Assembly (NCBI GenBank): GCA_008125075.1
Contig: VLTH01000002.1
Span: 1,108,849 to 1,171,674, forward strand
DNA from: Acetivibrio alkalicellulosi
Lineage (GTDB): Bacteria > Bacillota > Clostridia > Acetivibrionales > Acetivibrionaceae
Reading direction: 5' to 3'
Length of the DNA: 62,826 nucleotides
The position numbers were made by a program, and so were the translations under genes. How positions within the stretch are numbered: the first letter of the stretch is position 1; each line of letters begins with the position of its first letter. Shown one piece after another: positions 567 through 5,438 of this stretch. A model generated the notes under the pieces. That model ran no database searches and was not told where the DNA came from. It saw only the letters and a list, made by a program, of their open reading frames with translations.

Positions 567-914
567 TTAGTATATTGAATTTCCACAGTTAATGTCAAAA
601 GGCATAATTAGCAACTTTTGAATATCCTTGAGATGATTTTTGAAAAACCATTCTGTTGCTTTACCGTAATTCTCCTTATTGTCGAATTCCCAATAAGAAA
701 AATACTTAACACACTTAATAATTTTGGTTAACTCTCGCGGCGGTTCTCCACTCTCGACACCATCAATGGTAAAAAAACGCTTAACATATTTGATATCAAT
801 ACAACCAATTTGCTGTTTTTGTTCGTCAGCTATCGTTGTTATCAATGTTTCAAATTCAATCAGTTTATCAGGTTTCACTTGAAATAGCTTAACCTCAGAA
901 AAACTATTTTTCAT
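567..914 (-). CDS. Small protein, possibly ABM-like (dimeric alpha/beta barrel)
   Basis: A 115-residue soluble protein. I start it at the ATG at 914 because GAGG lies 8 nt upstream and overlaps the alternative GTG at 923. The N-terminal half (KLFQVKPDKLIEFETLI, then a strand-rich CIDIKYVKRFF) recalls the beta-alpha-beta pattern of antibiotic-biosynthesis-monooxygenase or Dabb-type barrels. No catalytic residue can be named. It is the last gene of a run of four unrelated minus-strand genes, each separated from the next by a GC-rich palindromic element. It has no clear promoter of its own, which suggests a cassette-like origin. The function is unknown and the fold assignment is tentative. Confidence 0.6.
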   Translation of the reverse strand: MKNSFSEVKLFQVKPDKLIEFETLITTIADEQKQQIGCIDIKYVKRFFTIDGVESGEPPRELTKIIKCVKYFSYWEFDNKENYGKATEWFFKNHLKDIQKLLIMPFDINCGNSIY

Positions 915-1020
915 CTCACGCACCTCACAGTTATATCAATAATCTCTATTCCGTGCTTTTAAACAAATGTGAACTAAACTCATTTTAAACAATCACTTAA
1001 AGTTAGCATATAGTTCCATA

Positions 1021-1216
1021 AGGATTTCAGAGAACGTCGAGCGTCTCTGACGTCCGCCAGCCCTAGATAGCTCCTATCTTGGGTTGACGGATGTGGGCAG
1101 GATGACCCCGTGTTCACACTCCAGCGGCATTCTTCATGCTTAGCCCTTTACAGAGAAGCGTTGATATATGATGTTCCCTGCCCCGCAAAGACCAGACGAA
1201 GGCAGGACGCCGAGCC
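1021..1216 (-). repeat. Cassette-spacer palindrome, element A
   Basis: A GC-rich island in AT-rich DNA. It contains a central stem 1051-1063/1081-1093, with AGATAG-CTC-CTATCT at its tip (1065-1079). It also has GGGCAGGATGACCC at 1095-1108, CCCTTTAC at 1144-1151 and TTGATATATGATGT at 1161-1174, next to CCCTGCCCC. The same sub-motifs recur in elements B, C and D between the neighbouring genes. Arms around the TCTCTG motifs near 1030-1050 and 1150-1160 can pair, so the whole unit is an imperfect palindrome. Confidence 0.75.
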
Positions 1217-1461
1217 TTAAGGAAACCCCGATGTTACTAATTTTTTATTCATAAACAATTGTCAATTATCTAAAGTACAAAATACAATGCATTATACTTC
1301 TCTCTACTTAAAAACTATATCTATTTCGCAATGTTTTATTTGCTACAGCATTACTTCAAACTCTTTCTCTCAGTTCTTTGTTAGGTGCTTCATTCTATTA
1401 ATCAGTGGACTTACAGAGTTTAAAAGTCCGCCTCTAACAAACTATTTATTGTCAAATTATA

Positions 1462-2961
1462 CTAAATTTCATTTGATATATGAGCTATTGCAATTGTAAA
1501 TACATCTTCTAAAAAGCTTTTTATACTATTTTCTAGTTTTTCTACTCCAATATCAACTGATATAGTTAATGGTTTTATTTCTATAGGGATATTGACAAAT
1601 TTATTATTATTTACAATTCGATAATTCTTTTTACTAGAGGCACTTTTCTGGACATTATCATCTATAAATTCTAAAAATGCACCAATAGCTAAAGTACTAT
1701 CATCAAATCCATAATGATGAAGCGAAATTATTAAATTATATTTCTTTTTATCAGAAATTTTTATAAAAATTCTTACCCATCCTCTAGGTAAAGAGGGATT
1801 AAAATAGTAATTATGTTGTGTTGCATATTCAGCAATCTGTTTGTTAAAATAATAGTAATTATCACCATTTGGGCTTTCATCTTTGACATTTATAGTAGCC
1901 ATATCGCCAAGTTCTTCTTGAAGATTACTTCCTAATTTGTTCAATATAGTAACACAATAATTAAATATGTCGATTCTATTTTTACTAATTTGAATACTTC
2001 TTTCTTCTGCCTCAATACTCTTAAGCTTTTTAACTTTTTCAGAAAACACTCCAATGATTTGTTTAAAATTACTATCTTCAGATACCGTCTTCAAATTAAG
2101 CACAGATTCAATATTTCTTATTTGAACCTTGCAAAATAAATCTATTAACGATTGGTAATTACCATTATCAGCATTTTCCAGACTATCAATGTACTCCTTT
2201 TTTTCACTTCTCAAAATAGCAAATGGAAATAAATTCCCTTTTACCAAAATTAAACTAGCAATTAATCGAGCAATTCTGCCATTCCCATCTTGAAAAGGAT
2301 GAATTTGAGTAAAGGCATGGTGAAAAAAAGCAGCCTTAACAATAGGCGACACTCCTTTTTCTTCCAAATCATAATATATCTTTAATAATGCTTCAATTTC
2401 AGACTCTACCTGTTCTGGTGGGCAATACAAAAATCTTACATCATCATCTCTTTTAGGATTATTGGGGTGAATTTTAAACTGGCCTTTTAGCAATTTTACT
2501 GTACGATAGTTCCCTTCAGCATCTATAACTTCAATAGTATCTTGGTGCATTGTAATAATCTGATGTAACTCACGTAAATAACTCTTACTTATTTTTCTAT
2601 TAACCTTAACAAAATCAAATATAAAATCAATTGCTTTAAAATTATCTTCAAGGTGATTTATTAATTTTCTAGGTTGAATATTTGTATCACCATGTTGTAA
2701 ATAGGATTCAAAAAACCCTTCTTTAATAAATGTTTCGGTTATCCCCTGCTTTAAATCATATAACCTTTCAATAATTCCAGTTTCAATAGCTTGCTGCCTC
2801 TTTAATCTTTCGAGAAATCTTTCATATTCTTTTTCGTTCTGCTTAAGACTTTCCCTTTTTCTAAACCATGAAGGAGCAATATTATCAAATTTCACAGTAG
2901 ATGTCTTAACCCAGTTTTCGTCAAATGTTAACTGTCTCCATATGTATTTGTCATTTGTCAT
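1462..2961 (-). CDS. Fic domain protein (putative AMP transferase)
   Basis: A 499-residue cytosolic protein. The Fic signature HPFQDGNGRIAR begins at about residue 221; its His is the catalytic base, and the DGNGR loop binds nucleotide phosphates and Mg. Family members move AMP or another phosphate-containing group from a nucleotide to a hydroxyl side chain of a target protein. The sequence TFIKEG at residues 77-82 fits the class II inhibitory motif (S/T)xxxE(G/N), which would keep the enzyme self-inhibited. The start is the ATG at 2961, preceded by GGGAGG. An in-frame TTG 15 nt upstream sits in front of that site and is not used. The C-terminal ~200 residues are not recognised and may set target specificity. 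The gene lies between spacer elements A and B. There is no adjacent antitoxin gene, which agrees with a built-in inhibitor. Confidence 0.9.
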   Translation of the reverse strand: MTNDKYIWRQLTFDENWVKTSTVKFDNIAPSWFRKRESLKQNEKEYERFLERLKRQQAIETGIIERLYDLKQGITETFIKEGFFESYLQHGDTNIQPRKLINHLEDNFKAIDFIFDFVKVNRKISKSYLRELHQIITMHQDTIEVIDAEGNYRTVKLLKGQFKIHPNNPKRDDDVRFLYCPPEQVESEIEALLKIYYDLEEKGVSPIVKAAFFHHAFTQIHPFQDGNGRIARLIASLILVKGNLFPFAILRSEKKEYIDSLENADNGNYQSLIDLFCKVQIRNIESVLNLKTVSEDSNFKQIIGVFSEKVKKLKSIEAEERSIQISKNRIDIFNYCVTILNKLGSNLQEELGDMATINVKDESPNGDNYYYFNKQIAEYATQHNYYFNPSLPRGWVRIFIKISDKKKYNLIISLHHYGFDDSTLAIGAFLEFIDDNVQKSASSKKNYRIVNNNKFVNIPIEIKPLTISVDIGVEKLENSIKSFLEDVFTIAIAHISNEI

Positions 2962-3111
2962 TAGACTACCTCCCAAATAGTTTTTTTGTTCAAATTTTAT
3001 ATGTTCGTTGTATATAAATCAATAGAACATCTCCAGAATGATTCTTATGAAAATAATTACAATCTCATTCTAAACTTTATCACCACGAAATCTATATATT
3101 ATCACTTAAAC

Positions 3112-3366
3112 TCCAAAGGCCTTCCCTCCCCCGCCGCAGGACGCGGCGGCTTAGCAGGGAATATCATATATCGTCTACATGCGCGACGCCGTCTGAACCG
3201 GACCCCTGAGGATAACCCGTAAGTGCCGCTGTGCGGCCGGTGAAGCGGTGTGGTACGGTTCTTCTACATGGAATGACCCACGAAGCAATTCTACATGAAT
3301 TTCTACCCGTACCTTTACGAGCATGTGTTGATATATGATGTATGGTGCCCCGCGAAGCTTGCCCGC
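3112..3366 (-). repeat. Cassette-spacer palindrome, element B
   Basis: The longest spacer element. One end has GCAGGGAATATCATATATCG (from 3154). The other end has its approximate reverse complement around TTGATATATGATGT at 3328-3341, next to TGCCCCGCG. Inside lie ATGACCCACGAAGC (3273-3286), CCTTTAC (3312-3318) and a GC stem near 3225-3245. A separate hairpin of CCGCCGC/GCGGCGG type is at 3131-3150 and is mirrored in elements C and D. It separates the Fic gene from the next minus-strand gene. Confidence 0.75.
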
Positions 3367-3467
3367 AAAAGTCTTAGACTGATTTGAACTTTCCCTTTAA
3401 CAACTTTATTATAATCAATCATAAGACAAAAACATAGCTGATTGAAACTCAATATTTGCATTCTTTA

Positions 3468-3920
3468 TTATTCACTTATAAAACGCCATTTTAACTCATT
3501 TGCAATAACAAATGAAGTCATAGGCTCCTTTATTGCTGATCCACCCGCAACATTTTTCACATCAAAGTTTGCATTATCTGCCCAAACAATTAAATTATCA
3601 TCTAACCCTGTTATCAAATCGTTATCAAATGATAGATAAGAATCAAATATATCGCAAAAGTAGTTACTCTCCCAGCCAACCAAGTTCATCCTGCGAAGCC
3701 CTGAAAAACACAATTCTATTGTAATTGGATCCCATTGCCTTTGAAATATTATGTGAAGTTCCCTATCATTAGGTGCTCCAAAATACATATTCTTTTTATC
3801 ATCCACGCTTGCTCCACTAACATAGTTCAGTTCTTTTATACAAGAATCGTGAAATCCACCATAAGCTTTCATAAGCATTTCAATATCATCTTGTTTTTTT
3901 ACTTTATTCCACTGATTCAC
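3468..3920 (-). CDS. Uncharacterised 150-residue protein of the cassette-like array
   Basis: A soluble, acidic protein with no signal peptide. Its features include GGFHDSCIKELNYVSG near residue 25, an IIFQRQWDPITIELCF strand pair in the middle, and a Trp-rich WESNYFCDIF segment. The pattern (HDS near the N-terminus, then alternating beta strands) recalls small immunity-like or DUF families common in Firmicutes, but I cannot name the family. I choose the GTG at 3920, which has GAGG 8 nt upstream; the GTG at 3929 overlaps that site. Spacer elements B and C lie on either side. Confidence 0.6.
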   Translation of the reverse strand: MNQWNKVKKQDDIEMLMKAYGGFHDSCIKELNYVSGASVDDKKNMYFGAPNDRELHIIFQRQWDPITIELCFSGLRRMNLVGWESNYFCDIFDSYLSFDNDLITGLDDNLIVWADNANFDVKNVAGGSAIKEPMTSFVIANELKWRFISE

Positions 3921-4002
3921 TATAATCACCTCACAAAACCTAAAAAATCCTTAAATGTACTTAAAATGTTTGCTATAAATGAGACCTCGTCAGTCTTGCT
4001 AA

Positions 4003-4176
4003 AAGCACCATATATCATATATCGGTTTGTATCTGAGGTGGCTTTTCGCCTTAGATAGCTCCTATCTTAGGCGAAAAGCTGCGGGCAGGATGACCCACGA
4101 GAATGCCCTTTACTCAGATATATGGTTATGTGCTGCCCCATGACCCACGAAGCCAGAGCCACACGGACGTGGCACC
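4003..4176 (-). repeat. Cassette-spacer palindrome, element C
   Basis: The clearest palindrome of the set. The central stem pairs 4041-4058 with 4062-4079 (18 bp, one mismatch, CTC loop) and shares AGATAGCTCCTATCT with element A. Outer arms GTATCTGAG and CTCAGATAT flank it. The ends carry GCACCATATATCATATATCG (from 4005) and GGTTATGTGCTGCCCC (ending about 4139). GGGCAGGATGACCC (4083-4096) and ATGACCCACGAAGC (4140-4153) match elements A and B. Read on the minus strand, the left end contains ACATAAC, similar to an integron inverse core site. Confidence 0.8.
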
Positions 4177-4271
4177 TAAAACTCTTATTATTGGTTTTAG
4201 TTTACTAAAGTTTATTATTTCAAACTCAAATCTACAATATAATACAACTTATAAAAATTTTCAACTAATTT

Positions 4272-4880
4272 CTAAAGTACAGAAAACATTGCAACAATAG
4301 ACACACAAATATTAGCACCGCCATGTAGTAGCCAACTTGAAACTATAGACCCACCTGATTGCTTTTCATTAATCCAACCCATTAGACTTCCTAATACACC
4401 AGTAAATATAATAATGATAATACTCCTAAATGGTCCTACTAATGATAAAAACATTATGCCATGTAATAATCCGAAAAGCATTCCTTGAACAGTATTACCA
4501 ACTTTAAATCCAAATTTACCGGTAAGTCTTTTGGTCAAAAAACCCCTAAAGAATATTTCTTCAGATAGCCCAGTCTGTAAGAAAGCATATATCAATGCTG
4601 GAATTAAAGCTTTAGCACCTTGTCCAGTAAATTGTGCGGTTGCCAAATTTGAGTTTTCCACTAAAAAAGGTACTATCAAAAACAATATGATAAAAAAGAC
4701 TATAATGACTAGACATGATGCTATATACTTTCCTTTATTCTCAATTATTGGTTTCTTAAACCCTATCCATTTCAAAAAACCCGTATGTTTTCTGACAGTA
4801 AAAAGCCACCATATGAACGGTATTAGTGAGAATAGTACAATTTGAACTATAGCACTTAAAAGCATATTAATACTTTGCAT
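4272..4880 (-). CDS. CPBP/CAAX family intramembrane metalloprotease
   Basis: A 202-residue polytopic membrane protein with about five or six hydrophobic segments. The three conserved motifs of the CPBP (Rce1-like, ABI) family are present: SEEIFFRGFL with the Glu pair at 107-108 and Arg 112, FGLLH at 136-140, and LLHGGAN at 185-190 with His186 and Asn190. These residues form a membrane-embedded metal site. Bacterial relatives act in bacteriocin self-immunity, protein maturation or stress, so the substrate here cannot be predicted. The start at 4880 has AGGGGG upstream. It is the first gene of the minus-strand run of four, with spacer element D about 90 bp upstream and element C downstream. Confidence 0.9.
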   Translation of the reverse strand: MQSINMLLSAIVQIVLFSLIPFIWWLFTVRKHTGFLKWIGFKKPIIENKGKYIASCLVIIVFFIILFLIVPFLVENSNLATAQFTGQGAKALIPALIYAFLQTGLSEEIFFRGFLTKRLTGKFGFKVGNTVQGMLFGLLHGIMFLSLVGPFRSIIIIIFTGVLGSLMGWINEKQSGGSIVSSWLLHGGANICVSIVAMFSVL

Positions 4881-4970
4881 TTGTTATCCCCCTTATAAAT
4901 CGATTGATAATACTCAATACCATGTAATGTAATGTAATATAATATTTATTCACTTGCTCTTACTTATTAC

Positions 4971-5076
4971 TCCAGAGACTTTCCCAGCCGCATGGACGCG
5001 GCGGAGACAACTCCTCGTGGGGTGGCATATAACTTCTTTGTTTCTGAACATATGTTCGCCTATCCCTTTACTGGAC
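4971..5076 (-). repeat. Cassette-spacer palindrome, element D (shorter)
   Basis: This holds a GCCGC/GCGGC hairpin near 4987-5003 like the one at the edge of element B. It also holds GGTGGCATATAAC (ending about 5033), a GAACATATGTTC palindrome at 5046-5057 and CCCTTTAC at 5064-5071. It lacks the long central stem of A and C. On the minus strand the end reads GTTATATGCC, like an integron core site. The following 5077-5438 is AT-rich, and I see no gene in it. Confidence 0.6.
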
Positions 5077-5438
5077 ATTGTTTATATTAACCTATTTCGT
5101 ACATACCCATTATATTTTAACTTTGCCAATCATATTTTTTGCCAAACTGCACCATATTTAACTTACAAACATCTTATTGTTAAAAAATTTCTTTTGAAAT
5201 TGTGTCCTATACTCCATATTTTATCAGACCCCACTGGATTTTGTCCATTAATTTTTCATTTTTATGTTAAATGCACTTTAAATCAAAGATTACTTAGAAC
5301 ACATGTTCAACATGTTATAATTATACATCTACTTAAATCAAAAATCAAATCATAAATACCTATAAGCTCAGAATGAGAAACAAAATATATTTTGCTATTA
5401 TTTACATTATGTGTTTAGGAAATAACTAAATATTCCTG

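Follow-up and report, generated by a model that had tools for sequence, protein, structure and literature searches.

The first lines of a 62,826-nucleotide stretch of the Acetivibrio alkalicellulosi genome (C2:1108849-1171674, hereafter the window; the genome is 5.3 Mb in three contigs, C1, C2 and C3) raise the question of whether a clostridial chromosome holds arrays of mobile gene cassettes and, if so, which enzyme moves them. A sequence-only reading of the window had proposed an integron-like array: four genes pointing the same way, with GC-rich palindromes in the gaps. Our analysis favors integron-type arrays with units bounded by G^TT, an attI-type entry site and, as their enzyme, a 364-residue tyrosine recombinase that lacks the I2 insert of integron integrases (IntI); we put the probability of this reading at about 0.8. 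The window would then be the start of one of several such arrays in the genome. The missing insert, the presence of attI-type sites in five copies and the occurrence of similar systems outside the group all go beyond the sequence-only reading.

Folded sites and cassette boundaries

Used as a DNA query, one of the window palindromes (element A) matched the genome 18 times at E ≤ 0.001, itself included, and the matches clustered at C1:662-704 kb, C2:809-835 kb, C2:1093-1113 kb and the end of C1. Open reading frame (ORF) maps of these regions showed small genes in long series, predominantly on the same strand and separated by GC-rich gaps. Alignment of 20 elements, all from this genome and three of them from the window, gave a common form in gene direction: ACATCATAT-A[A/T]C-AA-stem ... 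stem-(a few nucleotides)-C-G[T/A]T-ATATGAAAT. In all 20, the R'' core keeps its A and C and the R' core its G and last T; the middle position is A or T, many cores reading ATC/GAT in place of AAC/GTT. The proposed stems covary (score 0.587 against a shuffled mean of 0.190, with 0 of 500 shuffles as high), and the inner helices are paired in 91.5% and 86.9% of cells; the figure for the outer R''/R' helix within one site is 70.6%. The elements thus have the imperfect palindrome, R''/R' cores and paired inner stem of attC sites.

The covariance model R1 gave 51 matches (E ≤ 1) in 24 own-genome sources, and only one of these, at the start of contig 3, lay outside the four array regions. With three window copies of L018 matches and two weak matches left out, 46 sites were kept, of which 43 overlap an ORF of at least 120 residues by less than 20% and three by at least 50%, in keeping with the gene-boundary position that the sequence-only reading had expected. 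Among 60 genomes including this one, 18 had at least one match at E ≤ 0.01. At most 49 candidates were scored per genome, making the high counts lower bounds: at least 49 in G002, 44 in G009, 41 in A. alkalicellulosi and 33 in G040, with 20 in G017 and 16 in G005. An attC finder returned 6, 9, 7, 6 and 2 matches in five own array segments, against 0-4 in shuffled sequence and 1-4 on the opposite strand; because it also matched the ends of insertion sequences (IS), site counts were taken from the covariance model together with a neighbor test.

The neighbor test draws on the geometry of integrons, in which crossover follows the G of R'; the outer bases of R' at site i are thus part of cassette i+1 and pair with R'' of site i+1. 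We compared the eight outer bases of R'(i) and R''(i+1), counting six or more as agreement, in 200 model sites from this genome and its relatives (183 with a readable R' core, 194 with a readable R''); 154 of the relatives' 166 sites had been kept, one duplicate, nine sites cut at contig ends and two others being left out. Neighbors agreed in 94 of 133 pairs (mean 5.59), against 16 of 179 within one site (3.66), 6 of 132 in reversed order (3.42) and 56 of 840 other pairs of a locus (3.43). Over 2000 rounds of shuffling R'' within loci, agreeing pairs averaged 23.8 and never exceeded 39. A cruder finder, used in an earlier run, gave a weaker signal of the same sign (mean 4.12 in 111 neighboring pairs; 3.09, 2.83 and 2.94 in the comparisons). 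The second core base, A or T, tracks the next cassette (0.94) rather than its own site (0.64), which places the crossover after the G. As in integrons, the unit is bounded by G^TT and the outer R' goes with the following cassette.

The match extends well beyond eight bases. In the 94 agreeing pairs it declines from 0.95 to 0.76 over positions 12-19 and reaches background (0.23) at position 20. Position 11 is the exception, being consistently mismatched (match 0.03, transition 0.93). Without selection for agreement, the 133 pairs together match at 0.82-0.68 over positions 12-19. In a free circle the outer stem would therefore be long and have a single invariable mismatch, whereas the integrated site is poorly paired in this part. 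That the long circle stem thereby favors insertion over excision is speculation.

The end-to-start match bears on the simplest alternative, namely that the elements are structured RNA 3' elements, terminators or miniature inverted-repeat transposable elements that lie between genes by chance. They are strongly folded, they do occupy intergenic gaps, and the case for recombination is built from sequence; such elements would nevertheless show neither a match between the end of one unit and the start of the next nor exchange of whole units at the core. An Rfam search of the window returned three tRNAs only, with no family at gathering score on the elements. We regard this alternative as very improbable.

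Exchange of whole units is seen between species. Of 36 inter-genome matches (at least 300 nucleotides and 80% identity, intron-like sequence removed), nine start at junctions in both genomes, four end there and three do both, many of the matches being partial cassettes or other DNA in common; an unfiltered BLAST of whole arrays was dominated by intron- and IS-like copies. Three whole cassettes match from junction to junction: C2:1104047-1105174 in G002 (98% over 1128 nucleotides), C2:827600-828477 in G002 (96% over 878) and one common to G005 and G009 (97% over 978). The recA genes of these pairs are 83.3% (A. alkalicellulosi and G002) and 87.4% (G005 and G009) identical in DNA; recA was chosen as the reference, another housekeeping DNA probe having matched nothing in five relatives. 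Cassette identities of 96-98% against 83-87% for recA therefore indicate that cassettes probably moved recently between species. Cassette presence and absence was compared across species: content differs between related ones, and whole cassettes are held in common at high identity. Together with the neighbor test, this supports the proposal that the elements act as recombination sites. It also argues against regarding the arrays as fossils, formerly mobile and now inactive repeats like the clusters of attC sites lacking integron integrases (CALIN). Group-II-intron-like and IS-like insertions do break the arrays, and one window cassette has lost its site; we consider fossil arrays improbable all the same in view of the near-identical whole cassettes.

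The cassettes have the single-gene, one-polarity make-up and unrelated functions known from integrons. Excluding cassettes of at least 3 kb, of at most 150 nucleotides or with N, the longest ORF has the same strand as the array in 19 of 20 cassettes of this genome and 100 of 107 in relatives, bearing out the single polarity seen in the window, and one ORF of at least 75 residues is present in 17 of 20 and 77 of 107, respectively. Products include methyltransferases, an Mrr nuclease, an M23 peptidase, Fic, DUF3885 and proteins of no family. Some cassettes likely carry defence genes (Fic, Mrr/TIR-like).

Two further observations concern the sites. At some six sites (R2_828318, R3b_1104141 and R4_1108919, and on C1 near 663.2, 670.1 and 671.2 kb in L010), the G[T/A]T[A/C] of the R' core is followed at once by what we take to be a group-II-intron-like sequence (starting GTACGCCAAGC...). 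Class C-attC introns insert at attC in integrons, a hint that retroelements, too, treat these elements as attC sites. Contigs begin or stop inside arrays (C3:1865-1981 in L046, the C1 end in L019, and in many draft relatives), and array repeats probably break assemblies.

The recombinase, its attI-type sites and their linkage to arrays

The genome has five copies, at E ≤ 4.4e-10, of the 90 bases ahead of the first window cassette: the window copy at C2:1113881 and those at C1:661298, C2:2670518, C2:1092114 and C2:803059. Every copy ends in G^TT or G^AT, beyond which the sequences differ. The copies lie at array starts, and the one at C2:803059 begins at the end of a tyrosine recombinase gene (C2:801977-803071, 364 residues), so that an attI-type site adjoins the putative integrase gene and is common to array starts. 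TATAATGGGTAT, which contains TATAAT, is kept in four of the five copies and absent from that behind the recombinase gene. Inverted-repeat boxes (ACGAACnTATGTTCGT, AACGACATATGTCGTT) lie ahead of the junction behind several orthologues and some relatives elsewhere, and are not obvious in all. The copy at C2:2670518 (L174 518-607) is followed by a 264-residue gene with no site by the model, and is a nearly empty platform.

The recombinase combines a Phage_integrase domain (5.2e-41) with SAM-like domains. It scores 228.4 bits with NF040815 ('site-specific tyrosine recombinase/integron integrase', XerA-type; cut-off 220) and 222.7 bits with TIGR02249 (integron integrase), below the cut-off of 265. 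Aligned with IntI4 (PDB 2a3v), it matches in two pieces that skip IntI4 residues ~180-238. The spacing from GxKDR to HxLRH is 64 in this protein and seven orthologues, and lies between 63 and 68 in each of the 79 relatives with a readable frame (from 80 foreign loci, see below), against 105 in five of five measured canonical IntI, a set that leaves out the Kovacikia IntI; it is 69-70 in two Xer-like proteins of the same genome. The recombinase and its measured relatives thus lack the ~41-residue I2 insert, the additional domain (I2/patch III region) by which IntI-type integrases are defined. The eight aligned orthologues have in common an N-terminal domain of ~80 residues, predicted as beta-beta-alpha-beta-beta-alpha, which may be HARP-like. 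An AlphaFold model was of moderate quality (predicted local distance difference test score 75.7, predicted template-modeling score 0.49); the first three Foldseek matches to it were IntI4 2a3v (template-modeling score 0.44-0.57).

A tree of 58 rows, ten of them Xer sequences serving as outgroup, placed IntI (6 rows) as sister to the I2-less family (42 rows; support 100/100 and 97/95, respectively), on the opposite side (100/100) from the Xer clade (100/100). The I2-less rows included about 30 of the 79 foreign rows and four IS91-type partners. Like XerC, XerD and XerA, the recombinase has the core fold, no I2 insert and a match to NF040815; unlike them it lies outside the Xer clade, and membership of that clade was rejected. 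We know of no Xer enzyme that serves cassette arrays. A nesting of IntI inside the I2-less family, seen in a quick 99-row tree, was dropped in favor of the sister arrangement. IS91-type recombinases (C2:823850-824707, C2:1093873-1094952 and C2:439 kb) were also considered as the integrase, and form a clade of their own. As a separate observation, the IS91-like units to which they belong (C2:823850-825876, C2:439 kb and C2:1093873-1094952) lie inside or near arrays; their recombinases, within the I2-less family, also end in SP[M/F/L]D, and one accompanies a presumed Y1-type transposase-like protein, the names IS91 and Y1 being our assumption.

The recombinase gene stands directly ahead of the R2 array, so that an IntI-related tyrosine recombinase does lie at the start of one array, as the sequence-only reading had suggested looking for; the window array has an attI-type site with no recombinase beside it. 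Among the 60 genomes, eight (this one included) have a full-length recombinase, G040 twice. Seven full-length copies have more than 1 kb behind them, and six of these have a same-strand attC-type site within ~1.2 kb: those of A. alkalicellulosi, G002 (one in-frame TGA listed), G004 and G009 and both of G040. In all six the recombinase and array are on one strand; intI is usually divergent from its cassettes. The G005 contig ends 209 nucleotides behind the recombinase gene, and in G018 the gene is broken and followed by a finder site. This linkage strongly suggests that the I2-less recombinase is the array enzyme.

Several results weigh against that assignment. Only one of the five attI copies adjoins the recombinase, the other four having none beside them. 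G045 has the recombinase and no site by finder or model in a partly masked stretch; G036 has no site in a genome-wide model search, its contig ending 727 nucleotides behind the recombinase gene; and six multi-contig drafts (G017, G020, G042, G044, G047 and G050) have 6-20 sites and no full-length recombinase at E ≤ 1e-40. With the cruder finder the neighbor signal was missing at some loci (own R2, 3.0 versus 3.1 within sites; lower in L112, L127 and L161), and a canonical-integron control (G368, G182 and Kovacikia) had too few consecutive sites. Published work, moreover, regards the I2 insert as necessary for attC recombination. The attI copies without a recombinase, the sites without a full-length gene and the stated need for I2 would fit true cassette arrays moved by another enzyme, be it a canonical IntI since lost, an IS91-partner recombinase or the host XerC/D, and IS91-type partner recombinases do occur inside arrays and near sites in G009 C3. 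On the other hand, no IntI above the model cut-off was found in the A. alkalicellulosi genome, and only 2 of 398 genomes in a phylum sample have one, while the 364-residue type stands directly ahead of sites in several genera and of arrays in other phyla, often with an attI-type box behind it. Another enzyme therefore seems unlikely to us, and the I2-less recombinase remains the preferred candidate.

A scan of genome contigs beyond the group yielded 80 named foreign loci, the best 80 of 571 relatives. A contig end lies within 3 kb of the recombinase downstream at 47 of 80 and upstream at 8 of 80, as expected if repeats follow the recombinase. A strict finder returned 88 sites in 330 kb downstream (one strand) versus 24 in 1.33 Mb upstream (both strands), with two or more sites at 20 of the 56 loci that had at least 600 nucleotides downstream. 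Model R1, run on 47 of the 80 loci, matched 8 places only; foreign sites therefore have other sequences, and the finder was used to locate them. Neighbors agreed at six or more of eight bases in 26 of 44 pairs, versus 5 of 88 for the own site, 1 of 44 reversed and 7 of 146 others. The agreeing pairs, which match through position 15 and in 0 of 26 cases at position 11, came from 14 loci: twelve of Bacteroidota (including Flavobacterium, Algoriphagus and Aequorivita), one of Halanaerobacter and one of Fusibacter. By the neighbor test, then, such arrays are present in Bacteroidota and two further Bacillota. We think it quite probable, if less so than the reading of the arrays themselves, that this is a second, deep integron class spread over Bacillota, Bacteroidota and probably further phyla, whose integrase never had I2 or lost it. 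I2-less relatives only, with no established array, were seen at L085-L087, L089, L095, L099, L106, L118 and L136 (Nitrospirota, Spirochaetota, WOR-3 and archaeal records).

We propose that a cassette comprises a gene, or in some cases a pair of genes, followed by a folded attC-type site; the unit opens with the base after the G of a G^TT (or G^AT) core and closes with the G of the following core. Cassettes would be excised as circles and inserted at attI, where an inverted-repeat box (CGAAC..GTTCG type) lies near the junction. The 364-residue enzyme would probably perform this recombination on folded single strands, and in trans on the other attI copies. attI would thus be the entry point, and a promoter there may drive the first cassettes.

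Cassettes of the window

All four genes described by the sequence-only reading are present, on the minus strand (Table 1). Pfam confirmed the Fic (E 1e-19) and Rce1/CPBP (E 4.8e-16) labels, and the Fic protein also matched the PADLOC models PDC-S04 and SoFic; the 118- and 153-residue proteins had no Pfam match, leaving the label 'ABM-like' for the former without support. The palindromes have common sub-motifs as described (a 46-nucleotide block in three copies and a 49-nucleotide block in two), and the central hairpin reported for two elements corresponds to AGATAGCTCCTATCT within the two copies of the 49-nucleotide block. Three of the four supposed elements are full attC-type elements by the covariance model; the fourth GC-rich stretch (~4951-5042) corresponds to the hairpin at the 5' end of the first cassette, next to the attI-type site. 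The terminal motifs ACATAAC and GTTATAT, assigned to elements C and D, held for ACATAAC in D; A and C have ATATATC, and GTTATAT stands at the attI junction.

Table 1. Features of the window array (window positions; all on the minus strand)
Feature	Position	Strand	Remarks
attI-type site at array start	5033..5105	-	CGAAATAGGTTAATATAAACAATGTCCAG...CGAACATATGTTC...AAGAAG; junction G^TT between 5033 and 5032
Stretch with TATAAT immediately upstream of attI, candidate cassette promoter	5106..5122	-	putative promoter function
Cassette 1: CPBP/Rce1-like gene (4272-4880) and own attC-type site	4023..5032	-	junctions read from sequence
attC-type element D	4009..4139	-	model R1 98.9 bits; element in training set
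Cassette 2: 153-residue gene (3468-3929) and own site	3172..4022	-	ends complementary at 18 of first 19 positions
attC-type element C	3158..3344	-	model R1 114.4 bits; element in training set
Cassette 3: Fic-domain gene (1462-2976) and own site	1035..3171	-	ends complementary at 18 of first 19 positions
attC-type element A	1021..1177	-	model R1 123.1 bits; element in training set
Cassette 4 start: 118-residue gene (567-923)	567..1034	-	no attC found behind gene by model R1

Cassette 2 starts with ATATATGATATATGGTGC, and its inverted end repeats those letters bar one; cassette 3 behaves likewise. The end of cassette 4 is missing, and a gene that we take to be IS3-like comes next, its end reaching the window start. 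An 8-bp inverted repeat, TTTGTTAG/CTAACAAA, at 1377-1446 lies behind the Fic gene and ahead of element A; it resembles the core letters in inverted order and may be a terminator. A small hairpin (e.g., CCGCCACATCGTGTGGCGG) 20-60 nucleotides behind many junctions, followed by a TTAGG..GGCTTTG[G/A]AG-type stretch, forms a common 5' element, with examples at window 4951-5030, at C2:1092201-1092279 and at array starts in G002, G009 and G040.

Relation to known integrons and significance

As far as sequence can show, these are mobile attC-type cassette arrays, for the site architecture, unit boundaries, between-species transfer of units, recombinase-array linkage and absence of the insert are all read from it directly. 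The closest known system is the sedentary chromosomal integron, which likewise has large arrays that begin at attI, single-gene same-strand cassettes, AAC..GTT palindromes, a unit boundary that follows the G of G^TT, and group-II-intron-like insertions at the R' core. The present arrays differ from it in that the recombinase has no I2 insert and has an extra N-terminal domain, its gene and the array lie on one strand, ATC..GAT cores are common, and only one of five attI copies is beside the recombinase. Cassette-end complementarity also differs: it reaches position 19 in this group and position 15 in other phyla, interrupted by a constant mismatch at position 11, and the classical attC R box has 7-8 nucleotides. 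By the defining insert the system is not an IntI integron, yet it appears to work like one. Criteria that call for the IntI insert would probably class these arrays as CALIN; unlike CALIN, they have a linked, conserved recombinase and an attI-type site.

Two papers (PMC7790495, PMC4792948) present gain of the I2 helix as the account of how integrases came to use single-stranded attC. A 2008 survey kept insert-containing matches only (PMC2426708), an archaeal study took the insert as the defining characteristic (PMC9668308), and IntegronFinder 2.0 listed one complete integron in Firmicutes, that of Limnochorda pilosa (PMC9024848). An 'Integron-like' tyrosine recombinase subgroup has insert-less members that the corresponding portion of its description does not tie to cassette arrays (PMC8138268). 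Searches of an open-access library, which leaves out subscription papers and bioRxiv, returned no title or abstract opening that describes integrons with insert-less integrases or cassette arrays in Clostridia. Most likely this is an integron class with an I2-less integrase, missed so far as surveys made the insert a requirement.

A linked I2-less recombinase with tens of cassettes per genome would make integron-type gene capture wider than has been counted, and some clusters now called CALIN may have an overlooked integrase. Part of the significance lies in the cassettes themselves, which include likely defence genes and appear to move between species. Living I2-less enzymes would make the origin of integrons directly testable. 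If the second class is real, its sister position to IntI suggests that attC-type cassette capture is older than, or independent of, I2, and recognition of folded sites would rest elsewhere, for example on the cassette-end stem of 15-19 positions with its mismatch at position 11, or on the N-terminal domain.

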